The notes below the pieces were generated by a model. That model searched no databases, was not told the DNA's origin, and worked only from the letters and a program-made list of their open reading frames with translations. From Ulva prolifera (lineage: Eukaryota > Chlorophyta > Ulvophyceae > Ulvales > Ulvaceae), in NCBI GenBank assembly GCA_023078555.1, contig CM041199.1, positions 3,406,513 to 3,470,512 on the forward strand: a DNA stretch of 64,000 nt, in the 5' to 3' direction. Below, piece by piece: positions 103 to 33,888 of the stretch (positions within the stretch are counted from its first letter, which is position 1; the number at the start of each line of letters is the position of its first letter). The position numbers and the translations under genes were made by a program.

Positions 103-9516
<9,414 letters not shown>

Positions 9517-16015: not shown

Positions 16016-19000
16016 AGCCCGAATCTCGAGGTTGCTGTGTTTTCGTTGCTGGTCGTGTCGATTGACCCCGTCCACGGCATGGCAGTCGAGCCCCCGGAGG
16101 CTCGGCGCTTGGCATTTGATAATACTTGTTAGGCCATATCTGCAATGCTAGGGTCCCATGGGCAAGCCGAAGCGGAAGGAGCCGTCAAAGGCAAAGCTGA
16201 GCGACCTGAACCGCCAGCACGCTTCGCAGTCGCCCGTGCGACCTAGCCTATTGATTACAGACCAACGTAGCATCCTAGATACTAATGAAGTTGTTAACTG
16301 CAACAATGGACAGCTCGCAGTCGTGCAGCGCGAGTCACCGCGCGGGTCTCCACAGCCCAAGCGCCGGCGCGCAGCACCTGCCAGCGGGACAGCTACTGAG
16401 GCTCATCTCTCTGCAGATACAAGCAAACAGGTAACATCGGCGCTGAATGTGGTGCCTGGTGAGACTCAGCTCGCCACGGCTGCCCCTCAGCAGCCGCCAG
16501 CCACCAGCAACGACCAGCACGACAGGGCTCACGGCACTGCACAGTGCCACCATCCACCCCCGCCCGCCTCCGCCGACACCCCTTCCCCGCCCCTTCCCCC
16601 ACCTCCTGGCCTCGCAGGCGCAGCAGCCAAGCAGTCTGCTACCCGCCGGCCACATCGCCAAGCCGCAGCAGCCGCCGGCGCACCCCCCCCTGCGCGGGCC
16701 AGTGGGGGCACGGGCGGCAACGCCAAGCAGCAACGTGCCCGGCGGGGAGGTAAGAAGAAAGGCAAGGGACGGGGAGCAGGTAGCCAGTCGACGTCGCAGC
16801 GGGCGGGCCCCCGCAGACAGGCCGGGCTCCGTGCGGCTGCATCTGCCCCGCCAGTGCAGCGGGCCAACGCGGCCCCACGGCTGCGCCTGCCGCAGCATGT
16901 CCCCCCAGCCGCCCGGCTGGGGTGGGCCGAGTCGTGCACCAGGGTGTGGGAGCTGGTGGCCGACGCGTGCACGCATGCGCGCGGCGACAGCGCGCGAGAG
17001 GAGGTTGTTGCCGCTTTCGAGGAGCTCATGCGCCTGCCCATGCGCCTGCTAGCGTACAGCAGGGGGCGGCGCTCTGGGAAAGCGGCGGCAGGGCGGTGCC
17101 GCGACTACGCCCTCGGGCTGCCCGTGGAGATGTGGGAGGACACGCCGCCCGGCCGCTGGCCCGGGAGGCGCAAAGCTCCCATGTCTGCAGATCAGCTGCG
17201 GGCGCAACACATCGACAGATGTTTTCGCATCAAGCGCTCCATTCACAAAGCTGGCCGCGGATTGCAGGAGGGCAAGCCCGCAGATGCACGGTCCCCGGAG
17301 GTCCAAGCCGATCTGCGCGCATTGTTCCCGCCAGCAGATCCGCCGGTCCCTCTGGAGCCGAACCCGGATGTCCCCGCTCTGTGCCTGACACGGGAGGCGC
17401 TGGTTGCGGCGGTGGCCGCCGTGAGCGCACACCATCGAGGGTCGTCGGCCGGCCCGTCCGGCTGGCCGTTCGAGATGATCCGCGCAGCATGCCAATCCTC
17501 GGACGCAGCCACCGACGCGCTGCTGGCGGTCGTCAACCACATGCTGTCCGGCATGCTGCCACGGGAGACGTTCCTGCTGGACGGGCTCCTCATCGGCCTG
17601 GAGAAGCCGGACGGTGGCACGCGGCCGATCGCGGTGGGGGAGACCTGGTACCGGTTCGCGGCAGTGTGCGCCCTGCGCGAGTACGGCCGCGACATCGGAG
17701 AGAGCCTGGCGCCGCTGCAGGTCGGCGTTGGCACACGGGGCGGGACCGAGACAGTCGTGCACGGCCTGTCTTCTGCTCTGGCCGAGGGCGCTTCGGTGTT
17801 CTCGGTCGACATGAAGAACGCCTTCAACTGCATCGACCGCGCGGCCATGTTCGCTGCCGTGAAGGAGCGTGCCCCGGCGCTGCTGCCCTTCACGCAGTGG
17901 GCGTACGGCGCCGGGACCCCGCTGCGCATCGCGGGCGCTCCGGAGGACGTCGAGCCGGTCCTCTGCCAACGTGGCGTCCGCCAAGGTGACCCCCTGGGCC
18001 CCCTCCTGTTTGCGTTGACCCTGCAGCCTGTCTTGGAGCGCGTCGACGCGTCAGGCGCCGGCGCACCTGTGGTGGCGTACCTGGACGACATCAGCATTGC
18101 GGGCGACCTCGCGGCTGGAGCTGCCGTGTTCCGGCGGCTGTGCGTGGAAGCTGACGGCGTGCGCAGCATTGGGCTTGAGGTGAACCCGGCAAAATGCGGC
18201 GTCAACAGCGCCGACGCCGAGGCGGCGGCCGCCGTGGCCGCAGAGCTCGGCATTCGGGATCTGCACGCGGGCTTCAAGGCTGTCGGCACGCCGCTGGGCA
18301 CCCCGGAGTACGTCGCCGAGGTGCTGGACAAGCGGGCGCGCGAGGTCGAGGGCCTCGTCGAGACCCTCGTGCGCATCCCGCTCTCAGTGCAGGCGCAGTT
18401 CCTCCTGCTGCGTGTGTCCTTGAGTGTGCGCATGACGCACCTGATGCGGACGGTGCCGTATGCCGTGCTCGAGCCGCACATGCGCAGGGCGGAGGCCGCT
18501 GTGTGGCGCGGTGCCGCCGCAATCCTGTGCCTGCCGCCGGCGGTTGCGGAGGCTGCTGCCGCGTCTGACAACTCGGCCACTGACGCTGAGACGCGGCGGC
18601 TTGCCTACCGGCTGATGTCCCCTGTCAGGCATGGCGGACTCGGACTGACGATGCTGGTGGACAGCGTCGCTGACGCGGCTTTCCTGTCGGGGGCCGGCAC
18701 GGCCGAGCGCAACCTCGCCGGCTGCCCGGACCTGCTCCGCCCCCTCCGCGGCCACAGCCGGGGCAGTCTGTTGCAGCGCTGGCAGGGCCTGTTCGACGAG
18801 CTGCATGAGCTGCTGGGGTGGGAGGCGGATGCCCGTGACCTGCCGGACGAGTTCGTCTCGGGCAAGCTGCTAGCGGCCCAGCGCGAGGTGGGGCGCGCGG
18901 TCGCGGACCATGCGGCCTCGCTCGTGCTACAGGGCATCGACCTCGACACGCCGGCCGGCAGGCGGGAAGCGGCGTGGCTCAGGAGCGCCTCGGGGGGGCC

Positions 19001-19905
19001 TGCAGGCGCCTTCCTCTCCGCTCTGCCGGGCGGCATTCTCACCATGGGCGACGACATGTTTGTCCTGGCGGTGTGGCACCGCCTGCGATTCCGCGTCCCG
19101 ACGGACGTCCCCCCCCCTCCGTGCAAATGCAGTGCAGGTGTTGCCGCCGAACCAGACCACGCCATGGTCTGCAAGAAGGTGGCAAAGGAGACCCAGATGC
19201 GCCATGATAACCTGGCTCGTGCCTTGCGCCTGGTCGCCTCTTACGCCGGACTGCAGTCTGCCCTGGAGCCGCTCTACCGTGCCCTCGCGAGGGGCGCGGG
19301 TGTTGAGCTGAATCGCCGCGGGGACGTCGTCGTGGTCATGCCGCGCCTGGAGATGGCGGCCGTGGACGTCGTGGTCACGCATGCGCCGGCGGCCTCATAC
19401 GTGGCCGCTGCGGCGCGGGAGACGGGTGCGACGGCGGAGCGGGCGGAGGACAGGAAACGGGACCGCTTCCGGCGGGACGTGCCTGACCATGCCGCGTTCC
19501 GGTTTGTTCCGTTTGCGGTCGAATCGTGTGGCTTCATGGGCACGGCTGCCGTGAGGTTCGTCGGTCAGTTGGGGGATGTGGCCGCTGCCAGTGGGCGCAT
19601 CTCCAAAGGCGCGTTTGTCCAGTGGGCGCTGCGGGTGTTGTCGGTGTCATTGCAGCGCGGCAATGCGGATATGTATCGGAAGTCTGGGCTTGTCATCTCT
19701 CGGGAGCAAGGGTTGCGATATGATGCGGGCCTGGAGGACGCGATCCTGCCGGACTGAGTTGTGAGTGCGGTTGTGGCGTTCGTGTGTGTGTGTGAGTGTA
19801 TGTTGCAGTTGATTCGGGTGAGATTCGGTTTCAGTGTTTGTTTTCTCCCGTTCGCTCTTTTGTAAAGACAATCTTCTCCCGTTCACTCTTTGTAACCACC
19901 GCTCC
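16016..19905 (+). mobile_element. Non-LTR retrotransposon with restriction-like endonuclease, apparently intact
   Basis: One long ORF (16158-19757), a short 5' leader and a roughly 150-base 3' UTR. The 3' UTR ends in two near-copies of TTCTCCCGTTCRCTCTTTTG followed by TAA, and no poly(A) tail follows. The 5' edge is estimated from where the upstream relic ends. Many short relics of the same 3' end lie nearby (15.3-21.8, 29.8 and 31.5 kb). No flanking duplication could be fixed for this copy. Confidence 0.8.
16158..19757 (+). CDS. Reverse transcriptase/endonuclease polyprotein of non-LTR retrotransposon
   Basis: 1,199 residues, uninterrupted. It copies the element's RNA at a nicked target by target-primed reverse transcription. 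The N-terminal 250 residues are low-complexity, Pro/Ala-rich and basic, with possible nuclear localisation clusters (GKPKRKEPSK, QPKRRRA, RRGGKKKGKGRG). The RT domain lies at about 413-720: FSVDMKNAF with Asp551, RQGDPLGPLLFAL near 604-616, and AYLDD with Asp643/Asp644. A knuckle-like CKC..H..C lies at 989-1005. The C-terminal 200 residues show a PD-(D/E)XK-like order, GD near 1056, VDVVV near 1069 and AEDRKRDRF near 1100, then PFAVES, typical of elements with a restriction-like endonuclease (R2/NeSL/Dualen grade). No apurinic-type endonuclease or RNase H seen. GC-rich third positions match the host exons. Start chosen as the first ATG after an in-frame stop. Confidence 0.9.
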   Translation: MGKPKRKEPSKAKLSDLNRQHASQSPVRPSLLITDQRSILDTNEVVNCNNGQLAVVQRESPRGSPQPKRRRAAPASGTATEAHLSADTSKQVTSALNVVPGETQLATAAPQQPPATSNDQHDRAHGTAQCHHPPPPASADTPSPPLPPPPGLAGAAAKQSATRRPHRQAAAAAGAPPPARASGGTGGNAKQQRARRGGKKKGKGRGAGSQSTSQRAGPRRQAGLRAAASAPPVQRANAAPRLRLPQHVPPAARLGWAESCTRVWELVADACTHARGDSAREEVVAAFEELMRLPMRLLAYSRGRRSGKAAAGRCRDYALGLPVEMWEDTPPGRWPGRRKAPMSADQLRAQHIDRCFRIKRSIHKAGRGLQEGKPADARSPEVQADLRALFPPADPPVPLEPNPDVPALCLTREALVAAVAAVSAHHRGSSAGPSGWPFEMIRAACQSSDAATDALLAVVNHMLSGMLPRETFLLDGLLIGLEKPDGGTRPIAVGETWYRFAAVCALREYGRDIGESLAPLQVGVGTRGGTETVVHGLSSALAEGASVFSVDMKNAFNCIDRAAMFAAVKERAPALLPFTQWAYGAGTPLRIAGAPEDVEPVLCQRGVRQGDPLGPLLFALTLQPVLERVDASGAGAPVVAYLDDISIAGDLAAGAAVFRRLCVEADGVRSIGLEVNPAKCGVNSADAEAAAAVAAELGIRDLHAGFKAVGTPLGTPEYVAEVLDKRAREVEGLVETLVRIPLSVQAQFLLLRVSLSVRMTHLMRTVPYAVLEPHMRRAEAAVWRGAAAILCLPPAVAEAAAASDNSATDAETRRLAYRLMSPVRHGGLGLTMLVDSVADAAFLSGAGTAERNLAGCPDLLRPLRGHSRGSLLQRWQGLFDELHELLGWEADARDLPDEFVSGKLLAAQREVGRAVADHAASLVLQGIDLDTPAGRREAAWLRSASGGPAGAFLSALPGGILTMGDDMFVLAVWHRLRFRVPTDVPPPPCKCSAGVAAEPDHAMVCKKVAKETQMRHDNLARALRLVASYAGLQSALEPLYRALARGAGVELNRRGDVVVVMPRLEMAAVDVVVTHAPAASYVAAAARETGATAERAEDRKRDRFRRDVPDHAAFRFVPFAVESCGFMGTAAVRFVGQLGDVAAASGRISKGAFVQWALRVLSVSLQRGNADMYRKSGLVISREQGLRYDAGLEDAILPD

Positions 19906-20500: not shown

Positions 20501-21318
20501 ATGATCACCATCACGATGGTACAGCGCAACGGCAGCGGCTTCACGGCGTCAGGCTCGTGCTGCAGGTCACAACTGGCGCCGCATACATGACGCCGGACGG
20601 CGCTCAGGATCATGCCAGCGATCGACGTCGACCTAGCCTGGCGGAGAATGATCATTCGGTCGACCGCCGAGACAGGCAGCAAGCCACGATAGGATGCGCG
20701 GCGCCATCGCAATTCAGGGCTCGCTCGGGCTCGAGCACAACTGCAAGCATCACATCGATGGCTTCCAGGCTGCCTCCCCACGCCACGCACTGTGTGACGA
20801 TACGTCACACGCATGGAGATGCATGGCTTAGAGTATTCTGGAAGCCTCCGGAATGTCCCGTCAGTCCACGTGACCGTGGCTGGCAGTATGGGACTCTGTT
20901 AACAGTGGTCGCCAGACTCGTCCTGCTGACGCAGGCGGGCCATCGAGGCACTGCTCTGGAATTCTCCAGAAGCATTGCAAATGTCCGGCGTATAGGCGGA
21001 CACGATGGGAGCCTCTGGTGTGTACGGGGTCAGTGAGCTGAGCACAGCGCACTGTGGCAGGTGTCGTACACAGGCTAGCTTACAGTATATAAGCAGCTGG
21101 ACCTTAAAGGGTATTCGACAGATCTCACACTCCATGTCTCTTGACTAACAGTCTTTACACACTGTGACGGCGGTGACGCCATGCAAGCGGGAGATCATGA
21201 TGGACATGCTACAGGTGCTTCACAACCACGCATTGTACCAGAAACTGCACGTGCATGTACGAGCAGTTGGTGATTGTGTGGAATATAGAAGTTCCCATGG
21301 GATTGGCCCACTAGGAGA

Positions 21319-21579
21319 ATGGTGACATTCCGGGGCGGAACCGAAGGCGTTCCGCTGACAGAGGAACATTCCTACGAGGCTGTTGACCTTCCGCCCGCGT
21401 CCGTATGCTTCACAAGGAACGATCGTGGCGGAATGTCCTATGGCTTCCTTGGTGGCAGCGGAATGTCCTATGGCTTCCTTGGTGGCTGCGGAATGTCCTA
21501 TGGCTTCCTCGGCAACAGCGCTGACATGATTGTGTGCTCTTCCATCGCGCGAGACAGGCCAATCAGTCTCCGCAGATGA
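21319..21579 (+). other. Short open frame with three 30-bp repeats
   Basis: 86 codons. 21429-21517 holds three near-identical 30-bp units encoding GMSYGFLGG. No homology recognised. It may be chance translation of a minisatellite, since the unit length of 30 keeps frame. Coding status unsupported. Confidence 0.3.
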
Positions 21580-21631
21580 AAAGCACTGGAAATCCATTGC
21601 GTACTGAGGCGAACGCAGCTGCGCACAAATA

Positions 21632-21770
21632 AAAACATTACAAACGAGCACATGGAAGAAGACAAACATCAAAGAAGCTGCGCCCATGTACGTCCAGCAG
21701 TCCGACTGCTCAGAGTTTGAGCTGGAACAAGTTTACAAAAGAGTTAACGGAGAAGACATACATGCATGTA
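21632..21770 (-). mobile_element. Two minus-strand retrotransposon 3'-end relics
   Basis: Complements of about 21632-21668 and 21733-21770 read (TTTG)TCTTCTTCCATGTGCTCG..TTGTAA and GTCTTCTCCGTTAACTCTTT..TGTAA, diverged matches to the element's 3' end. Confidence 0.45.
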
Positions 21771-21969
21771 CACCAAAGGATATTGAAAAGGATTGAGCAC
21801 TCATGCCTGCATATCCGATGCCCACGGAAGACGAGGACGTGCCTGACAAGTTGGTGCTACTCTCCTTTAGGTGGTCAAGCATGAACCGCGTTCAGAGGAG
21901 ACAAATGGCGTGCTCCTGTCGCTGAGTGGTCAGTGTGGCACCGTCCATTCCGGTCTGAATCGATGCAAG

Positions 21970-22070
21970 TGTGCCCAGTCAGCAACATCGTGGAATGGTC
22001 GGTGCCTCACCGACCATTACGGCCCAGTCAGCAACGTCGTGGAATGGTCGGTGCCTCACCGACCATTACG
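21970..22070. repeat. Tandem doublet of a 25-bp palindrome
   Basis: Two 49-bp units. Each holds arms AATGGTCGGTG and CACCGACCATT around CCT (21994-22018 and 22043-22067), preceded by CAGTCAGCAAC(A/G)TCGTGG. The arms are one base pair different from those of the array at 29.9-30.8 kb, with both strands changed together. Confidence 0.85.
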
Positions 22071-22440
22071 GGGTCGAGTAATGCATGCGCTAGTCACCAC
22101 TGCAGTGTCGATGGATAGCCCACGAGCATTGCATCTCGCCATCAACGATCTCTGGAGCGAGTATAGTACCAACGGAGCATCTTCCCACAGCAATGTAAGC
22201 CAATTCATATGAGCTATTATAAGCGTCTGGAGTCTCTCGGCGTCGGCGTCGATATCGTCTCATGATAATGCATTTCTAGTTTATTTGTATCGACTCTCTT
22301 TGTATTTCTCTGGTACTGTCCTGACGTGCAGGGAGGCTAGCTGAAGGTTAACAGCATGTGGCACGAATAATGCTTGCGATTCATTTGTATAGCGTGGCAT
22401 AACATGTCTGGCTTGGGTGGTGAGGGCGCTGTGGCCTGTC
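22071..22440. other. Gene-free spacer before the satellite
   Basis: No coding region recognised. Confidence 0.4.
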
Positions 22441-25400
22441 TTTAAGGCGATGGTCAGCCTGACCCTGGCGTGGCAGCACCCAGACATGAAGGGGGCAGAG
22501 GGCATAACAACACAGAAACACCAAGTGCCACTGTGATTCAGCAACGATGGGCAGCACCACTGTCAACCACGCTGCACTGCGTGGGGGGGCAGAGGGGGTA
22601 ACAGCACAGAAGGACCAGGTGCCGCTGTGCTACGGCAACGATGGGCAGCAACACTGTCAACCCCGCTACACTGCGTGGGAGGGCAGAAGGGGTAATTATA
22701 ACAGCACAGAAACACCAGGCGCCACTGTGCTGCGGCAACGATGGGCAGCATCACTGTCATCCCCGCAGCACTGCGTGGGGGGGCGGAGGGTATAACAGCA
22801 CAGAAACACCAAGTGCCACTGTGCTGCGGCAGCGATGGGCAGCACCACTGTCAACCCCGCTGCACTGCGTGGGGGGGCAGAGGGGGTAACAGCACAGAAA
22901 CACCAGGTGCCACTGTGCTGCGGCAACGATGGGCAGCACCACTGTCAACCACGCTGCACTGCGTGGGGGGGCAGAGGGGGTAACAGCACAGAAGGACCAG
23001 GTGCCGCTGTGCTACGGCAACGATGGGCAGCACCACTGTCAACCCCGCTACACTGCGTGGGAGGGCAGAAGGGGTAATTATAACAGCACAGAAACACCAG
23101 GCGCCACTGTGCTGCGGCAACGATGGGCAGCACCACTGTCATCCCCGCAGCACTGCGTGGGGGGGCAGAGGGGGTAACAGCACAGAAACACCAGGTGCCA
23201 CTGTGCTGCGGCAACGATGGGCAGCACCACTGTCAACCCCGCTACACTGCGTGGGAGGGCAGAAGGGGTAATTATAACAGCACAGAAACACCAGGCGCCA
23301 CTGTGCTGCGGCAACGATGGGCAGCATCACTGTCAACCCCGCTGCACTGCGTGGGGGGGCAGAGGGGGTAACAGCACAGAAACACCAGGTGCCACTGTGC
23401 TGCGGCAACGATGGGCAGCACCACTGTCAACCACGCTGCACTGCGTGGGGGGGCAGAGGGGGTAACAGCACAGAAGGACCAGGTGCCGCTGTGCTACGGC
23501 AACGATGGGCAGCACCACTGTCAACCCCGCTACACTGCGTGGGAGGGCAGAAGGGGTAACAGCACAGAAACACCAGGTGCCACTGTGCTGCGGCAACGAT
23601 GGGCAGCACCACTGTCAACCACGCTGCACTGCGTGGGGGGGCAGAGGGGGTAACAGCACAGAAGGACCAGGTGCCGCTGTGCTACGGCAACGATGGGCAG
23701 CACCACTGTCAACCCCGCTACACTGCGTGGGAGGGCAGAAGGGGTAATTATAACAGCACAGAAACACCAGGCGCCACTGTGCTGCGGCAACGATGGGCAG
23801 CATCACTGTCAACCCCGCTGCACTGCGTGGGGGGGCAGAGGGGGTAACAGCACAGAAACACCAGGTGCCACTGTGCTGCGGCAACGATGGGCAGCACCAC
23901 TGTCAACCACGCTGCACTGCGTGGGGGGGCGGAGGGTATAACAGCACAGAAACACCAGGCGCCACTGTGCTGCGGCAACGATGGGCAGCATCACTGTCAT
24001 CCCCGCAGCACTGCGTGGGGGGGCGGAGGGTATAACAGCACAGAAACACCAAGTGCCACTGTGCTGCGGCAACGATGGGCAGCATCACTGTCATCCCCGC
24101 AGCACTGCGTGGGGGGGCGGAGGGTATAACAGCACAGAAACACCAAGTGCCACTGTGCTGCGGCAACGATGGGCAGCATCACTGTCATCCCCGCAGCACT
24201 GCGTGGGGGGGCGGAGGGTATAACAGCACAGAAACACCAAGTGCCACTGTGCTGCGGCAGCAATGGGCAGCACCACTGTCAACCCCGCTGCACTGCGTGG
24301 GGGGGCAGAGGGGGTAACAGCACAGAAACACCAGGTGCCACTGTGCTGCGGCAACGATGGGCAGCACCACTGTCAACCACGCTGCACTGCGTGGGGGGGC
24401 AGAGGGGGTAACAGCACAGAAGGACCAGGTGCCGCTGTGCTACGGCAACGATGGGCAGCACCACTGTCAACCCCGCTACACTGCGTGGGAGGGCAGAAGG
24501 GGTAATTATAACAGCACAGAAACACCAGGCGCCACTGTGCTGCGGCAACGATGGGCAGCATCACTGTCAACCCCGCTGCACTGCGTGGGGGGGCAGAGGG
24601 GGTAACAGCACAGAAACACCAGGTGCCACTGTGCTGCGGCAACGATGGGCAGCACCACTGTCAACCACGCTGCACTGCGTGGGGGGGCAGAGGGGGTAAC
24701 AGCACAGAAACACCAGGTGCCACTGTGCTGCGGCAACGATGGGCAGCACCACTGTCAACCCCGCTGCACTGCGTGGGGGGGCAGAGGGGGTAACAGCACA
24801 GAAACACCAGGTGCCACTGTGCTGCGGCAACGATGGGCAGCACCACTGTCAACCACGCTGCACTGCGTGGGGGGGCAGAGGGGGTAACAGCACAGAAGGA
24901 CCAGGTGCCGCTGTGCTACGGCAACGATGGGCAGCACCACTGTCAACCCCGCTGCACTGCGTGGGGGGGCAGAGGGGGTAACAGCACAGAAACACCAGGC
25001 GCCACTGTGCTGCGGCAACGATGGGCAGCATCACTGTCAACCCCGCTGCACTGCGTGGGGGGGCAGAGGGGGTAACAGCACAGAAACACCAGGTGCCACT
25101 GTGCTGCGGCAACGATGGGCAGCACCACTGTCAACCACGCTGCACTGCGTGGGGGGGCAGAGGGGGTAACAGCACAGAAGGACCAGGTGCCGCTGTGCTA
25201 CGGCAACGATGGGCAGCACCACTGTCAACCCCGCTACACTGCGTGGGAGGGCAGAAGGGGTAATTATAACAGCACAGAAACACCAGGCGCCACTGTGCTG
25301 CGGCAACGATGGGCAGCATCACTGTCATCCCCGCAGCACTGCGTGGGGGGGCAGAGGGGGTAACAGCACAGAAACACCAGGTGCCACTGTGCTGCGGCAA

Positions 25401-27826
25401 CGATGGGCAGCACCACTGTCAACCACGCTGCACTGCGTGGGGGGGCAGAGGGGGTAACAGCACAGAAACACCAGGCGCCACTGTGCTGCGGCAACGATGG
25501 GCAGCATCACTGTCAACCCCGCTGCACTGCGTGGGGGGGCAGAGGGGGTAACAGCACAGAAACACCAGGTGCCACTGTGCTGCGGCAACGATGGGCAGCA
25601 CCACTGTCAACCACGCTGCACTGCGTGGGGGGGCAGAGGGGGTAACAGCACAGAAGGACCAGGTGCCGCTGTGCTACGGCAACGATGGGCAGCACCACTG
25701 TCAACCCCGCTACACTGCGTGGGAGGGCAGAAGGGGTAATTATAACAGCACAGAAACACCAGGCGCCACTGTGCTGCGGCAACGATGGGCAGCATCACTG
25801 TCATCCCCGCAGCACTGCGTGGGGGGGCAGAGGGGGTAACAGCACAGAAACACCAGGTGCCACTGTGCTGCGGCAACGATGGGCAGCATCACTGTCATCC
25901 CCGCAGCACTGCGTGGGGGGGCGGAGGGTATAACAGCACAGAAACACCAAGTGCCACTGTGCTGCGGCAGCAATGGGCAGCACCACTGTCAACCACGCTG
26001 CACTGCGTGGGGGGGCAGAGGGGGTGACAGCACAAAAGGACCAGGTGCCGCTGTGCTACGGCAACGATGGGCAGCACCACTGTCAACCCCGCTACACTGC
26101 GTGGGAGGGCAGAAGGGGTAATTATAACAGCACAGAAACACCAGGCGCCACTGTGCTGCGGCAACGATGGGCAGCATCACTGTCATCCCCGCAGCACTGC
26201 GTGGGGGGGCAGAGGGGGTAACAGCACAGAAACACCAGGTGCCACTGTGCTGCGGCAACGATGGGAAGCATCACTGTCATCCCCGCAGCACTGCGTGGGG
26301 GGGCGGAGGGTATAACAGCACAGAAACACCAAGTGCCACTGTGCTGCGGCAACGATGGGCAGCATCACTGTCATCCCCGCAGCACTGCGTGGGGGGGCAG
26401 AGGGGGTAACAGCACAGAAACACCAGGTGCCACTGTGCTGCGGCAACGATGGGCAGCACCACTGTCAACCACGCTGCACTGCGTGGGGGGGCAGAGGGGG
26501 TAACAGCACAGAAACACCAGGCGCCACTGTGCTGCGGCAACGATGGGCAGCATCACTGTCAACCCCGCTGCACTGCGTGGGGGGGCAGAGGGGGTAACAG
26601 CACAGAAACACCAGGTGCCACTGTGCTGCGGCAACGATGGGCAGCACCACTGTCAACCACGCTGCACTGCGTGGGGGGGCAGAGGGGGTAACAGCACAGA
26701 AGGACCAGGTGCCGCTGTGCTACGGCAACGATGGGCAGCACCACTGTCAACCCCGCTACACTGCGTGGGAGGGCAGAAGGGGTAATTATAACAGCACAGA
26801 AACACCAGGCGCCACTGTGCTGCGGCAACGATGGGCAGCATCACTGTCATCCCCGCAGCACTGCGTGGGGGGGCAGAGGGGGTAACAGCACAGAAACACC
26901 AGGTGCCACTGTGCTGCGGCAACGATGGGCAGCATCACTGTCATCCCCGCAGCACTGCGTGGGGGGGCGGAGGGTATAACAGCACAGAAACACCAAGTGC
27001 CACTGTGCTGCGGCAACGATGGGCAGCATCACTGTCATCCCCGCAGCACTGCGTGGGGGGGCGGAGGGTATAACAGCACAGAAACATCAAGTGCCACTGT
27101 GCTGCGGCAACGATGGGCAGCATCACTGTCATCCCCGCAGCACTGCGTGGGGGGGCGGAGGGTATAACAGCACAGAAACACCAAGTGCCACTGTGCTGCG
27201 GCAACGATGGGCAGCATCACTGTCATCCCCGCAGCACTGCGTGGGGGGGCGGAGGGTATAACAGCACAGAAACACCAAGTGCCACTGTGCTGCGGCAACG
27301 ATGGGCAGCATCACTGTCATCCCCGCAGCACTGCGTGGGGGGGCAGAGGGGGTAACAGCACAGAAGGACCAGGCGCCACTGTGCTGCGGCAGCAATGGGC
27401 AGCACCACTGTCAACCCCGCTGCACTGCGTGGGGGGGCAGAGGGGGTAACAGCACAGAAACACCAGGTGCCACTGTGCTGCGGCAACGATGGGCAGCACC
27501 ACTGTCAACCACGCTGCACTGCGTGGGGGGGCAGAGGGGGTAACAGCACAGAAGGACCAGGTGCCGCTGTGCTACGGCAACGATGGGCAGCACCACTGTC
27601 AACCACGCTGCACTGCGTGGGGGGGCAGAGGGGGTAACAGCACAGAAACACCAGGTGCCACTGTGCTGCGGCAACGATGGGCAGCACCACTGTCAACCCC
27701 GCTGCACTGCGTGGGGGGGCAGAGGGGGTAACAGCACAGAAACACCAGGTGCCGCTGTGCTACGGCAACGATGGGCAGCACCACTGTCAACCCCGCTGCA
27801 CTGCGTGGGAGGGCAGAGGACGCACT
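22441..27826 (+). repeat. 94/100-bp satellite array, about 56 units
   Basis: Units begin ATGGGCAGCA(C/T)CACTGTC at 22547 and recur every 94 bp, or 100 bp when the unit carries a TTATAA insertion (GTAATTATAACAG against GTAACAG). The last full-phase start is 27771; a degenerate unit precedes 22547. At least four variants (AACCACGC, AACCCCGCTAC, ATCCCCGCAGC, AACCCCGCTGC) alternate in a loose higher-order pattern. Because 94 is 3n+1, every unit changes frame; the overlapping 80-codon frames that result are artefacts. Each unit has a short CCACGC..GCGTGG inverted repeat. Function unknown. Confidence 0.95.
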
Positions 27827-27829
27827 TTT

Positions 27830-29825
27830 GCCGACATCCCAATACATTGCCGAGCCATTGCTGCTGTAGCATGCTGCGTCACAGCCATACTATGCGCCTC
27901 TGCCATCTGAGAGGGGGGAGGCCACGCGACACATGATGCCCACCCGCACAAACACGCATGCACACCCACATTGGTACAACGTTCAACGGTACGTACTGCA
28001 GCAGCGGTGCATATACTACATTTTTGCCCGACTTGTCTTGCATCGGAACCACTAAAACGATTTTATTACTTTACCACGTACATATGTATGGCTCATACTT
28101 CCGTTGTGTCTCTGCTTTCGGTGTCGCCAATCATCCGGGGTTCATGCTAGCGCCAGGAGGCACCATGAGATCTGTGTAATGGTGGCCTGGGGCTGTTTGG
28201 GTTGCGTGCATGGCTGGGTCCACTAACGCCACACTCACCGCGATGCTGTTTTTGCATGCATGCGTGCATGCGATGTGTGGCGGTAACGCTCGCCATTCCA
28301 GGCGCGATCTCCATATGTGAGCTGTCAAAACCTAAACATTGCATCAGTGAGCATAAATGTATTATCAATTCGTTGTGCTGTCTCAATGCGTTGGAGTGCA
28401 AGCCATGACATCCGTACTGCGTGTGCGGGCGCACCGACATGATCATTGCGGCGTACCTGGTTGAACAAAGCGCCTGAAGTCTTCTACAATCTCTGTCTGT
28501 GGGTATTATTGTATAATGTGGTGTGAATCGTAGGCGGGTCTTTCACTCCCGGGCTGGCGTCTAATTGTTAGCAAGCAGCAGCCGCAGGCGTCATCGCCGC
28601 TGCTCAACTTCCGACATGCTCAATTGAAGTATGCTGCAAGGTGTGACGTTTGTATATGTCTGACGGCGCTGTCGTGGACATCACTTCCTTGCGAAGGCGC
28701 CGAAGACGCAGCTGATGTGCCGATATCGATGGTCGAGGCGCACACATTGTTCTGTTCGAGATGGCACCTGCCACCAGTTTAGAACTACTTCGTATATCAT
28801 ATATGCTGTAGCTGTATGCTGTAGCTTTGGATATGTTGTAGCTTCGGATGTGCGATGGCGCCCGATCGCATGAACCACGTTCACCTTGCTTGCAGAGCAG
28901 CTGCTTGAGGTGATTGCCGTCCGACTCCGTGTCTCAAACAAACTGACATTCTTAGAGTGCGCGTAAGCAGTAATGTTACTTGGAGCCTATCTACGCTTGC
29001 TTCTCTGCTGCTCGATCGAGATCATTGTGGTGCGCCTGGCATTTGCGTGCACCATCGGTTGTTGACCAGGTGTGTTTTCGCAGGTCACGGGTATCAGCAT
29101 CTTCCGGTATACCTACGTAGCCTACCTGAGGAACACACACTCACGTGGAAGTTATTTCGAGCCGGCCATGGGATCGTGACATCAAGCAAAACCGCATGGC
29201 ATGGAGGTGGTGCGATCCTATACCAAGTGCTTCCATTGTGGAGAGCAAACATATGGAGTATGTTCTAGATTGACTATGGTTGGACAGTACCGAACACTCT
29301 CGCGAGACTTGCATAAATCTCGGCGAACAAAGTTTACATGCACAACTGCCATCGACAGTTACTTCGTGGCAACAAGCAGGCGCCCAAACATCGCATTTGT
29401 GTGTGCACACGTGCGTCCAAGTTTGACCTCGTTAGTACCCGCAGGGCGTCTATAAGCATGCATGGGATCAAAACTGTAAGACAAGGCAGCCAAAGGATTA
29501 AGAGGACCGGAATATGTCGACAGAAGTGAGGGCTTAGAGAATTATCCGGCGCGTTCCTTGTTTGAGTGCGTTGTGTTGGGGTTGCAATCCTTCGAGTGTA
29601 TACATGTATCATTTAGCTGCGTACGTGGTGCCTCCACGTGGTGTCCTGTCGACAGACGTCTCGCCTTGATAGCTGATGCACATTGCATATCCCAAGAGGC
29701 ACGCGGAATACATCTGCACCATCGTAAGTTCGTTTAGTGTTCTTCTGCATGCCTGCTAGAGCGGGCAGTCCCGCACCGTTCATTTTCAAGAGTCCGCGAG
29801 AGCGGATGGTGGAGCACCGTCCATT
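27830..29825. other. Gene-free stretch between the two arrays
   Basis: About 2 kb with no recognisable coding region, lower in GC than the genes. Short open frames only. Confidence 0.5.
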
Positions 29826-29829
29826 CGTA

Positions 29830-29875
29830 GTTACAAAAGAGTGAACGAGAGAAAAACAACACTGAAATTCTTAGT
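29830..29875 (-). mobile_element. Retrotransposon 3'-end relic beside the palindromic array
   Basis: The complement reads GAATTTCAGTGTTGTTTTTC then TCTCGTTCACTCTTTTGTAA, matching the element's 3' terminus. It lies 40 bp from the first palindrome. Confidence 0.7.
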
Positions 29876-29914
29876 CGCCACGCCGCGCATGGTTCGTCAC
29901 ATGCATGACTACTG

Positions 29915-30775
29915 GAATGGTTGGTGCCCCACCAACCATTCCGGGGAGCTTGGATCATGACATGCATGACTGCCCGAATGGTTGGTGGCCCACCAACCAT
30001 TCTTGTGCGTCGCGCCGTGCATGGATGCTTACATACATGACTGCCCGAATGGTTGGTGGCCCACCAACCATTCCGGGGAGCCTGGATCATGATATATGTC
30101 ATGCACATGCATGACTGCCCGAATGGTTGGTGGCCCACCAACCATTCTTGTGCGTCGCGCCGTGCATGGATGCTTACATACATGACTGCCCGAATGGTTG
30201 GTGGCCCACCAACCATTCCGGGGTGCCTGGATCATGACGTATGTCATGCATATGCATGACTGCCCGAATGGTTGGTGGCCCACCAACCATTCTTGTGCGC
30301 CGCGCCGTGCATGGATGCTTACATGCATGACTTCCCGAATGGTTGGTGGGCCACCAACCATTCTGGGGAGCCTGCATCGTGACATGCATGACTGCCCGAA
30401 TGGTTGGTGGCCCACCAACCATTCCGGGGTGCCTGGATCATGACGTATGTCATGCATATGCATGACTGCCCGAATGGTTGGTGGCCCACCAACCATTCTT
30501 GTGCGCCGCGCCGTGCATGGATGCTTACATGCATGACTTCCCGAATGGTTGGTGGCCCACCAACCATTCTCGGGAGCCTGCATCGTGACATGCATGACTG
30601 CCCGAATGGTTGGTGGCCCACCAACCATTCCGGGGAGCCTGGATCATGATATATGTCATGCATATGCATGACCGCCCGAATGGTTGGTGGCCCACCAACC
30701 ATTCTTGTGCGCCGCGCCGTGCATGGATGCTTACATGCATGACTTCCCGAATGGTTGGTGGCCCACCAACCATTC
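29915..30775. repeat. Array of 13 copies of a 27-bp palindrome
   Basis: Arms GAATGGTTGGTGG and CCACCAACCATTC flank a single central base. Copies start at 29915 (one arm imperfect), 29976, 30047, 30121, 30192, 30266, 30337, 30398, 30472, 30543, 30604, 30678 and 30749. Spacing is 61, 71 or 74 bp, set by three recurring spacer types of 34, 44 and 47 bp, which themselves carry CATGCATATGCATG-like palindromes. Periods alternate, so a higher-order unit was duplicated. Confidence 0.95.
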
Positions 30776-30954
30776 TCGGGCGCCGCGCCCCACATTCCCT
30801 GACAGACCCATCTGATGTAGACGTTGTGCTACTGCAAAACAAACACATTGGGCAACAACATACCAGTGCGCGTGAATGAGCGCAAGCCACCGACACATAA
30901 CCTATCCATGCAGTTGTCCAGACTCGGAGCGAGGACTGCTGACGGCGAGGGCAC

Positions 30955-31144
30955 GATGAAGCCGGCCGCGCAGTGGGCACAAGAAGACGGACTGTACGTG
31001 GCTGACTACGAGTACTTCAAGAAATTCATCCTTGGCGCACTAAAAACGGAGGGGACAGCGGAATCTCCGTTGCATCCCACCCATAAGAGGAGCCAGAAGG
31101 TTGGCCTCGCGTTGAAGATTACCCGGAAGAAGTATGTCGATTAG
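30955..31144 (+). CDS. Small hypothetical protein or gene fragment
   Basis: 62 residues from an ATG (MKPAAQWAQEDGLYVADYEY..) to a stop. The frame stays open upstream to about 30824. The composition (charged, aromatic, lysine-rich C-terminus ending KITRKKYVD) looks more protein-like than its neighbours, but I recognise no family. It may be the last exon of a decayed gene or mobile element near the palindromic array. No promoter or splice site could be assigned. Confidence 0.3.
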
Positions 31145-31517
31145 TTGTATACCAACGTGGGCTCGGAAAGAAACTGTACACATGCGGTGATCGTGATTAA
31201 ATGTATGAGTGGAGTATATGACATGTTAGAGGTGGCACTACATGTGATCGTAGTATCATCGTTCCTTATGGACATGATGAGGGCACCCAAGGTGACGAGA
31301 TATCAATGTAAGCAATGTCTATGATATGCCTATGCAAGCCATGACCACCCCTGCCTACGAGCTCGTGTGAACACATCAATAAACCTGTCTTGTTCCGGAA
31401 TCACGGTGTACAGTTGATGACATGCTGCTTGTATATGCACTCGAAACTGCCTTTCCCGCAGGACCGTATGTCCTGTGCACTAATCGCGATTCTCTGTCGA
31501 AAACGTGGTACACATGT

Positions 31518-31584
31518 TACAATAGAGTGAATGGGAGAGAACAAACATTGAGACCGAGTTGCATCCGAATCAACGGCAACCTAC
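31518..31584 (-). mobile_element. 67-bp 5'-truncated retrotransposon insertion with 15-bp imperfect duplication
   Basis: The complement matches the element's 3' UTR (GTTGATTCGGATG.. through CATTCACTCTATTGTA). Flanks ACGTGGTACACATGT (31503-31517) and ACGTGGCACGCATGT (31585-31599) differ at two bases, so it is older than the copies at 15.6 and 20.3 kb. Confidence 0.75.
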
Positions 31585-31679
31585 ACGTGGCACGCATGTA
31601 AAGAAGGCCTTGATGACCTCACCACTTACGTAATCTGTCTCCAGCACATCCGGGCAGAGATTAACCTCTCACGAACCAT

Positions 31680-31995
31680 CCTGTTCTTCCAGGCTTCCGG
31701 GAGGCTTCCGCAAGGCTCTGCCGGAACGTTATCGGATCCGTAACCATTCCGAAATTTTAAGCATTCTTCCTCAAACAGTCCTCTGGAAGCATTGCGGATC
31801 CTTCGCACGTTCCGGCATCACTCCGGAAACGTTCCGGCGGAACCCCCACGTGGAGTGCCCGTTGAAACACCCCGTCCGGAACGCTCGCGGAACTTCCGTC
31901 CACAATCCGGGCTGCCTTCCGGGCGCTCCGCCAACGGTCCTTTCGCCGTTCCCGGGGTTCCGCCAGGCCTCCGCCACTCTTCCTCAAACCATCCT
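31680..31995. repeat. Block dense in TTCCG/CGGAA words
   Basis: About 315 bp in which TTCCG, TTCCGG or CGGAA recurs roughly every 15-20 bases at irregular spacing (GCTTCCGGGAGGCTTCCG, TTCCGGCATCACTCCGGAAA). It is not a simple tandem repeat, and its composition differs from its surroundings. Confidence 0.65.
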
Positions 31996-33540
31996 TGCAC
32001 CTTCCTCACCACCACGTCACCATTCTCCTAGTGGCCAATCCCATGGGATGGGTTGAGTTTCTGGCTTGGGACCCCAGCTGGGATTGGCTGACTTGTGGAC
32101 TTGCAACATGAGTGCATGCATCCAGGTCTCCTCGAGGAGTGTGTGTGTGTGTGTGTAAAACAAAGTAAATCTTAATTTACTTGTGTTAGAAGGACAAAGC
32201 CGGAGTGAAGAGTGAATGTCGCAATCCAGTGATACAGTGGCCACACCACTGGCTCCAGTGGTTTCGTAAACAATTTGCACACAAGGATCTATAGCTATAT
32301 ATATAGTGTAATTATAGCTGCACTGGCATTGGGGATCCGGAGCAGAGTGGCATTCCAACGCGTTTCTTGCGATGAAACACGTTCCCCACGCACTTGTGAC
32401 TTCATGTAATGTTGGACAACGTATGATACGCTGGCATGCCGGGTCTAACCGAGTACAGGACGGCTCCAGGCAAATATTCTCTGCGCTGCACCCGTAGCCA
32501 CGCTGCATGGGCACCATGCATACCGGCGTGTGGTGCACTCGAAGCCACGAGGCGTTGGAAGGCCCTGAAGAGCAGCCCTTGTAAACAACAGTTCAGCACA
32601 TGCCATAGAAACATCGCACAGTGAACATCTTACCACACAATTCAATAGATATTGCATGCAGTGTGTCAGACCATAGGCTGCACAGATCGCTGCACATGTG
32701 TAGTGCTCGTGCGGTCAGGCAAAAGCTAATGGGGTCATTCAACTCTGTGAATCATCAGGCCCACCCGCACACTGCCTGGCGGAATGCACAGCAGTCAAGC
32801 CCCATAGACTATACTAGAGTCTAGTGGAGCAGACTGTGCTGTTTGTGTCCAAAGGACAGGATTGTTGCGCAGCTAGCGCTGTGGCCCGGGCGGCAGGGGT
32901 GTCACGATCAGAGCGGTGATCAGAGCGGTGTATGGGTGCGGAGCTGCATCCCCGGGTGGCAGCCAAGCCTGCTGAGAGCGCAATCAGCCGCGACTACACA
33001 GATCGCCTGATTTATGTCTGAAATTTTTACAGACAACATATCACCCACTGCCTTATGTCTCCACAAACTCTCGTCGGTACGAGTCTCCGTACCAGCCCGG
33101 TGGCATTTCAGACTCTCTAGAGTCGCCAGGTCCACGACAGCGTTCGAAAGCTTATCCAGCACCATATTGCTATCATGGATCCGAGATCTGCCCAACGAAC
33201 CCGCCACAGGCTGCTCGATAAATTACATAACGGATGTTCTCAGGGCAGCCAACCCGCCATGCCGGCCCTCACAATGCACCCTATCACCTGTGCGAGCATC
33301 GTGAGTCGTGAGACTCACAAAAACGCCCTCTACTCAACTACTGCCATCCACGCCTGCTCTCGTGCACTACAGATGCCTGTCGTTCTGGGCGTCGCTCTCC
33401 CATGCATAAGTGCATATACACATCGTGCGTGCTGGCCAGCTGCGCCCTCAGGGCTGATGGTGCGCCCTGAGCTTAGCCCACCTTGGATGCTACTTAAGTA
33501 ATTACAGTGTCGTCTACAGCGAACGGCCCGAATAGCGATT
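31996..33540. other. Gene-free stretch
   Basis: Short open frames only. 32154-32190 holds a copy of the AAGTAAATCT..AATTTACTT dispersed word also found at 1-60 and 57312-57378. Confidence 0.45.
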
Positions 33541-33548
33541 TTCTGACC

Positions 33549-33888
33549 GCATGATGCATGTGCATGTGCACTGCAGTGGGCACTGTACATGCATCATGCG
33601 CACTACACACGTGCAAATTTGAACAGGGTCGCTTGGCGCCAAGATGCGGTCGGCGCCAAGCAGTCATTTTACCTACGCATCGATTTTGATGCTGCGCCAA
33701 AATGGAAGAATACGTTTCTATCGCGTTTTTCATTCTAGCGGTTTCATTTCATGACGGCTGATTGCAATTATGCGGGGCAGGCTCCAAGCCCTCATGCATT
33801 GCTATAGATGTATCGCGTGTGTCTGGCGACTGCTCAACTACTAGTTGAGCAGTGACAACAAAGTGATCCTAGTAGGATCACTTTGTTG
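33549..33888. repeat. Cluster of long perfect palindromes
   Basis: 13-bp arms GCATGATGCATGT (33549-33561) with complement at 33587-33599. 10-bp arms GCTTGGCGCC at 33631-33640 and 33652-33661. A 23-bp palindrome at 33830-33852 (arms CTGCTCAACTA). A 33-bp palindrome at 33856-33888 (16-bp arms CAACAAAGTGATCCTA). The last two are only 3 bp apart. Confidence 0.85.

Follow-up and report, generated by a model that had tools for sequence, protein, structure and literature searches.

In maize En/Spm, the protein TNPA binds subterminal repeats that are needed for excision and also regulates the element, and the En-1 motif, 12 bp long, is largely unlike the motifs of soybean elements (accessible part of PMC2613891). 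For the soybean element TgmR*, it is inferred by its authors that transposase binds the subterminal motifs, and that this binding is lost with higher methylation (accessible part of PMC4219821). Among plants, CACTA elements contain DUF4218, accompanied in some types by Peptidase_C48 (accessible part of PMC8978399). Here we consider a locus of the green alga Ulva prolifera, within a stretch of 64,000 nucleotides (assembly GCA_023078555.1, contig CM041199.1, positions 3,406,513 to 3,470,512; hereafter the window), in which 13 palindromes stand in a regular array. We consider it likely that this array forms the subterminal repeats at the right end of a CACTA (En/Spm)-type transposon that is itself non-autonomous, and that the palindromes are paired sites for an element-encoded protein that joins the element ends.

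The array lies within a CACTA-type element

All 13 palindromes described in the initial annotation are present at the positions it gave. Their unit, GAATGGTTGGTG-NNN-CACCAACCATTC, is matched within 3 mismatches at 13 places in the window (26 matches over both strands) and at none in shuffled windows. The proposed architecture of 13-bp arms flanking a single central base holds for 12 of the 13 units; the exception is the unit at 29915, where a central GTGCCCCAC leaves 13-bp arms around a 3-base centre (span 29914-29942). Likewise, there are indeed three spacing classes, but they do not strictly alternate, the successive distances being 61, 71, 74, 71, 74, 71, 61, 74, 71, 61, 74 and 71 bp. The sequence CATGCATATGCATG is found in spacers of the 74-bp class, and mental arithmetic on the helical phasing of the palindromes revealed no consistent phase. 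Rfam and tRNA scans of the window gave no matches.

Homology between the window and other loci carrying the array sets in at 21304-21309, ends at 32033-32035, and is continuous across the array and its surroundings. Both limits bear a perfect 18-bp terminal inverted repeat (TIR), CACTAGGAGAATGGTGAC. With the flanking GCC duplication, such ends identify the window element as a CACTA (En/Spm)-type DNA transposon, of which they are the hallmark (Table 1). Its 94-bp minisatellite is A-rich on the + strand (AT skew 0.2-0.3), and is shorter in some other copies. The window element has 11 stop-to-stop open reading frames (ORFs) with a length of 110 aa or more, and the nine of them that were scanned gave no transposase domain. 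When five ORFs of a 19-kb relative (L022, L037, L023) were searched against the window by tblastn, four had no match and the fifth matched only at the palindromes; the window copy looks non-autonomous. In comparisons with copies of its own subfamily, aligned stretches are ~91-96% identical, and one 1016-bp right-end stretch reaches 99.4%, so some movement or exchange may be recent.

Table 1. Features of the element and its flanks (window coordinates)
Feature	Position	Strand	Remarks
Target-site duplication, left copy GCC	21306..21308	.	same as 32034-32036
CACTA/EnSpm-like element, 10,725 bp, no recognised transposase	21309..32033	.	ends common to other copies
Left TIR CACTAGGAGAATGGTGAC	21309..21326	+	exact; mirrored at 32016-32033
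30-bp direct repeat, 2.7 copies, left end	21428..21509	+	in stretch common to other subfamilies
Left palindrome array GAATGGTCGGTG-NNN-CACCGACCATTA	21924..22068	+	one decayed and two good copies (21993, 22042)
94-bp minisatellite, ~56 copies, within element	22491..27819	+	length differs between element copies
Decayed extra (14th) palindrome, upstream of right array	29800..29826 (start approximate)	+	
Right subterminal array, 13 palindromes	29915..30775	+	each with two inverted 12-bp half-sites GAATGGTTGGTG, 3 bp apart
Right TIR	32016..32033	-	exact inverse of CACTAGGAGAATGGTGAC
Target-site duplication, right copy GCC	32034..32036	.	

The array is not a local oddity. Searching the 88.9-Mb genome with the pattern GAATGGTNGGTGNCNCACCNACCATTC, at up to 2 mismatches, returned 1101 forward and 1096 reverse matches and none for a reversed-pattern control; because the pattern is palindromic, the reverse matches are largely the forward sites. 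Uniqueness, by which the initial annotation would have known a mere local minisatellite, is thus refuted. Matches to the TIR with no more than 1 mismatch number 104 in forward and 94 in reverse orientation (1 and 0 for the control). Using the 100 exact TIR places among the matches listed, which end on contig C7, we paired intervals by hand and obtained 36 convergent ones, which fall into a small class (16 intervals, 6.0-10.7 kb) and a large class (20 intervals, 15-27 kb); elements of the family measure 6-27 kb. A 3-bp target duplication, as in the window, flanks 23 of the 28 intervals read at both ends (the window's included), with 4-bp duplications in two and none in three. These 28 pairs comprise a batch of 8 (seven with 3 bp, one with 4 bp) and a batch of 20 (16 with 3 bp, one with 4 bp, three with none), and shuffled pairing of the latter gave a mean of 1.2 identical 3-mers. 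The insertions with a 4-bp duplication are L032/L010 and L051/L052. A 3-bp duplication is not universal in the CACTA superfamily, given that for 7 of 14 copies of the Schistosoma element SmTRC1 the accessible part of its description reports 2-bp repeats that suggest a duplication. The symmetric GGATTGGCCAATCC target of the window copy hinted at a preference for palindromic target sites; we dropped this idea because the symmetry of eight empty sites (mean 2.75) was not above that of random window positions (2.57, P 0.39).

The genome search that the initial annotation had advised also reveals which loci the arrays mark. On contig C1, 90 exact palindrome matches form 16 clusters; 74 of the matches, and 12 of the clusters as against 0.15 expected at random, lie within 3 kb of an exact TIR. 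Of the remaining four clusters, two are internal arrays, a third sits 6 kb deep in an element, and the fourth has a one-mismatch TIR at a distance of 2.2 kb; all 16 adjoin or sit within TIR-bounded elements.

Palindromes across the element family

How are the palindromes placed within these elements? In the window element the left side has a decayed one at offset 616 and good ones at 685 and 734, and the right side has a series from 8492 (decayed) to 9441, giving two good copies on one side and 13 on the other. Four other copies of the window subfamily have an identical three-palindrome left set and 10 to 23 palindromes on the right, the right arrays of the subfamily having 10, 13, 13, 16 and 23 units. 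In three large elements, two of them with unread gaps, the left arrays set in at offsets 499-511, and 2.2 kb separates the end of the right arrays from the right TIR; a further element end (L048) carries 10 copies, a decayed one included. Each of the eight elements whose two ends were mapped has palindromes near both. In two of the large elements, and in a fourth large one (L017), there are in addition two or three internal copies between a DUF4218-like ORF and an 805-aa ORF; the middle of the third is unread. In L014, L017, L020, L021 and L037, palindromes adjoin the 805-aa ORF or a ~50% identical relative of it, both internally and near the left end, as if array and gene had been duplicated together within the family.

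The geometry of the palindrome is nearly invariant. Across the window and 29 loci we counted 482 half-sites with at most one mismatch. Of these, 227 pairs face head to head at a distance of up to 40 bp, and in 226 of them the gap is 3 bp; the remaining pair, with a gap of 2 bp, is an intact unit in L010. The distance from one palindrome to the next is variable, from 22 bp up, and in L025 it is units of 206 bp, each with three palindromes, that are repeated. To compare spacers, 12 were chosen from the arrays read. Similarity is evident among left spacers (mean z 11.9, 6 pairs), between internal and left spacers (16.9, 4 pairs) and among right spacers (7.6, 21 pairs), whereas left and right spacers compared over 28 pairs give mean z values of only 1.1 in direct and 1.3 in inverted orientation. 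Since the spacers of the two sides are not clearly related, it is the 12-3-12 palindrome that both ends share.

Variation within arrays was counted as departures from the class consensus, and seven units whose spacing class had fewer than three members were left out. For all arrays together, departures were counted at 86 of 5103 arm sites and at 234 of 7502 spacer sites; in the window's own type A the figures are 6 of 1836 and 87 of 2848, and in type B 5 of 459 and 52 of 688. As the units are related by duplication, P values from these counts are not clean probabilities. Detection through the palindrome itself could also hide decayed units, although the sole long gap seen within an array holds an intact unit. 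Relaxed to 5 mismatches, the pattern finds 238 units, and two control readings of this DNA yield 4. Among 117 distinct units, arm positions 7-8 vary (TT, TC, CT, AT and others), and the other ten arm positions are 95-100% fixed, a fixity partly built in by the search pattern. The two arms agree at positions 7-8 in 77 of the 117, compared with 56.4 when permuted (kinship of units ignored), which fits a symmetric site for a dimer and is also compatible with a hairpin.

Putative function and its rivals

We posit that two inverted 12-bp half-sites GAATGGNNGGTG, with 3 bp between them, make each palindrome a paired site, which a putative dimeric DNA-binding protein made by larger relatives would occupy. 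Sitting on many sites near both ends, this protein would pair the ends, and transposase could then cut at the CACTA termini; gene-less copies would be mobilised in trans by the larger elements, and arrays would grow and shrink by tandem duplication of a unit including its spacer. An En/Spm-like plan of this kind would lead one to expect a near-fixed dyad, presence at both ends, retention in copies without recognised genes, and a higher number on one side. What carries this explanation is the element itself, with its ends, and the fixed geometry of the palindrome; of the structural or protein-binding role that had been suggested for the array, protein binding is the best reading.

Which relatives might provide the proteins? 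The 19-kb relative has a 469-aa ORF with a weak match to DUF4218 (E 0.0036), and two further ORFs with weak matches to Peptidase_C48 (E 0.063 and 0.001). Over six ORFs, DUF4218 is matched at E 1.9e-4 to 3.6e-3, four of the six having been fetched by a DUF4218 search. Those fetched from elsewhere in the genome have Pfam E values of 1.9e-4 to 7e-4, and four divergent ones are 32-38% identical to the 469-aa ORF, an alignment which marks the fetched ORFs as its relatives. There are 60 DUF4218-like places, 12 of which fall in 12 of the 36 TIR intervals: 12 of the 20 longer than 15 kb and none of the 16 of at most 10.7 kb, leaving eight large intervals with no such place. The other 48 lie outside paired intervals, some on contigs beyond the TIRs listed and some near unpaired TIRs, and some probably represent other transposon families. 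Transposase_21, TAD and DUF4216 were not reported by Pfam in the 20 ORFs scanned, and searches of PDB sequences with two ORFs of a large element gave nothing meaningful. A match to an astrovirus capsid, in an ORF overlapping the palindrome array, was put down to chance (E 0.0023, below the cut-off, 18 residues, no stretch passing alone).

Several points weigh against our explanation. All the DUF4218 and Peptidase_C48 matches are below the Pfam cut-off, no TNPA-like protein was identified, and a profile search for Transposase_21 (PF02992) found no match, though it found none in control genomes either. The small internal array of the large elements is not needed for the pairing of ends alone, and single left-right spacer pairs reach z values of 2.8 in direct and 4.8 in inverted orientation. 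The excess conservation of arms comes from array types A and B only, of six: arms and spacers are level in types C, E and F, and in type D it is the arms that lean towards being more variable (15 of 486 vs 11 of 720, P 0.07). The expectation that arms of a plain minisatellite decay like their spacers therefore meets a divided answer, in that arms differ less overall, yet only through two types, with three level and one tending the opposite way. With type A excluded, the arms still agree at positions 7-8 in 44 of 79 units vs 32.5 permuted (kinship again ignored), but a hairpin predicts likewise. Lastly, the binding of a protein and the movement of copies are themselves what we infer.

Could the palindromes be, above all, operators or promoters? 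Arrays of this sort would mainly control transcription of the element's genes, with a role in transposition being secondary. The two or three palindromes between the DUF4218-like ORF and the downstream 805-aa ORF of large elements would suit such a function, as would the left arrays of two elements, which precede an ORF ~50% identical to the 805-aa one, and there is precedent in maize TNPA, which also regulates its element (accessible part of PMC2613891). However, the right array of the window, its largest, adjoins no recognised gene, and the window copy retains both arrays without any recognised gene, so that we regard this explanation as unlikely.

Less likely still is that the palindromes act as hairpins of RNA or single-stranded DNA, either as foldback RNA diced into small RNAs that silence the family, or through recognition during replication. 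Folded with DNA parameters, a lone unit does form a perfect 12-bp hairpin, and the minimum-energy RNA fold of the entire array is far better than those of 20 shuffles (z -23); the agreement of the arms at positions 7-8 also favours hairpins. The 13 hairpins foreseen by the initial annotation nevertheless hold for the lone unit only, as the fold of the whole array consists mostly of pairing between palindromes over distance and not of 13 separate hairpins. Beyond positions 7-8, changes at the other 11 arm pairs are rare and one-sided among the 117 distinct units, with no two-sided compensating (Watson-Crick) change (where the search pattern itself restricts change). A hairpin loop does not need the near-constancy seen in the 3-base centre, and placement near both ends tracks the element and not a transcript.

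We attach equally little probability to the palindromes being a functionless, ordinary minisatellite that grew from a chance palindromic seed inside the transposon. Unit number does differ within a single subfamily (from 10 to 23), the 206-bp three-palindrome units of L025 show ongoing tandem duplication, the same element holds the 94-bp minisatellite, and four of the six array types lack a significant excess of arm conservation. Against this, left and right arrays have the palindrome in common despite little relation between their spacers, in all array types read, and the half-site spacing is nearly fixed; independent minisatellites would not be expected to converge in this way. A stand-alone minisatellite is ruled out by the location of the array inside an element bounded by TIRs and target duplications.

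Foldback (FB) transposons have long terminal inverted repeats made of tandem units that reach the ends. The suggestion of a foldback element amplifying in place was right in so far as the array belongs to a mobile element, but that element is of CACTA type and the array is its internal, subterminal repeat region: the exact TIR is 18 bp, there is no array at the ends, arrays lie at least 0.5 kb from the left end in four elements, and the spacers of the two sides do not clearly mirror each other in inverted orientation (mean z 1.3).

Protein-mediated pairing of the ends thus remains our preferred explanation of the palindromes. We could further imagine, as a tentative and on balance improbable extension, that the 12-3-12 palindrome is one code with three uses: it would pair the two ends, would serve autonomous copies as an operator between their transposase gene and the gene that follows, and would be a licence by which 15-27-kb relatives, with diverged spacers and interiors, would move the gene-less copies.

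The window holds some further features. Directly left of the CACTA element is an ORF of 1199 aa (16158-19757, +) in which a reverse transcriptase domain was recognised (RVT_1, E 9.8e-11) and which is probably a retrotransposon; the stretch ~19732-19865, at its end and slightly beyond, recurs in the CACTA copy L010 (2298-2428) and in L023. An ORF at 1456-2571 (-) with an ABC-transporter transmembrane domain (E 3.5e-12) is probably a host gene exon. Elsewhere in the genome, an exon for the Rubisco small subunit has the Chlamydomonas entries 1uw9 and 1gk8 among its best PDB chain matches, which, along with sequence that is rich in GC and seems to bear introns, agrees with a green-algal host. At 33829-33888 two perfect palindromes adjoin each other, one with 12-bp and one with 16-bp arms; both have a single central base, and their sequence is unlike that of the array.

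Comparison with described CACTA elements

Among full-text literature, as judged from titles and the starts of abstracts, we recognised no description of palindromic arrays in a CACTA element from a green alga; Repbase and most subscription journals lie outside this scope, and one may be published. Plant elements of the Jozin type, described from Chenopodium, contain DUF4218 and, in some types, Peptidase_C48, to which the family here has weak matches below the cut-off; they also contain Transposase_21, TAD and DUF4216 (accessible part of PMC8978399), none of which Pfam reported in the 20 ORFs scanned here. The likeness to maize En/Spm is in the cis layout and in the proposed scheme of two proteins, a transposase and a binding protein (accessible part of PMC2613891); the difference is that no relative of TNPA was identified here.

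The soybean elements are closer in appearance. TgmR* is a 13-kb CACTA element with a 3-bp duplication and subterminal motifs, direct and inverted, that are able to form stem-loops, though it is an angiosperm element with two ORFs and motifs related to those of other soybean elements, whereas the window copy has no recognised transposase (accessible part of PMC4219821). Tgmt* comes closer in numbers, with two stem-loops on the left and 12 on the right, compared with two good palindromes on the left and 13 on the right here. However, its printed motifs, TTGGCAG and AATCTTACAG, are by eye unlike the Ulva motif, its repeats are no farther than 159 and 732 bp from the TIRs as opposed to 0.5 to ~3.1 kb in, as tandem units with long spacers, its 13-bp TIR has mismatches where ours is a perfect 18 bp, and some large Ulva elements have extra internal arrays (Tgmt* data from the accessible part of PMC2613891).

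The array is therefore a well-formed new example of a known CACTA architecture, and not a new kind of element. The ~200 TIR matches of its family constitute a natural series of elements in which the spacers have diverged and the site is still recognisable in the elements read. With two matching half-sites at near-fixed spacing, the motif of the array is cleaner than that of soybean, so that the binding site and the putative binding protein are directly testable, and the palindromic subterminal layout of the soybean CACTA elements extends to a green alga.
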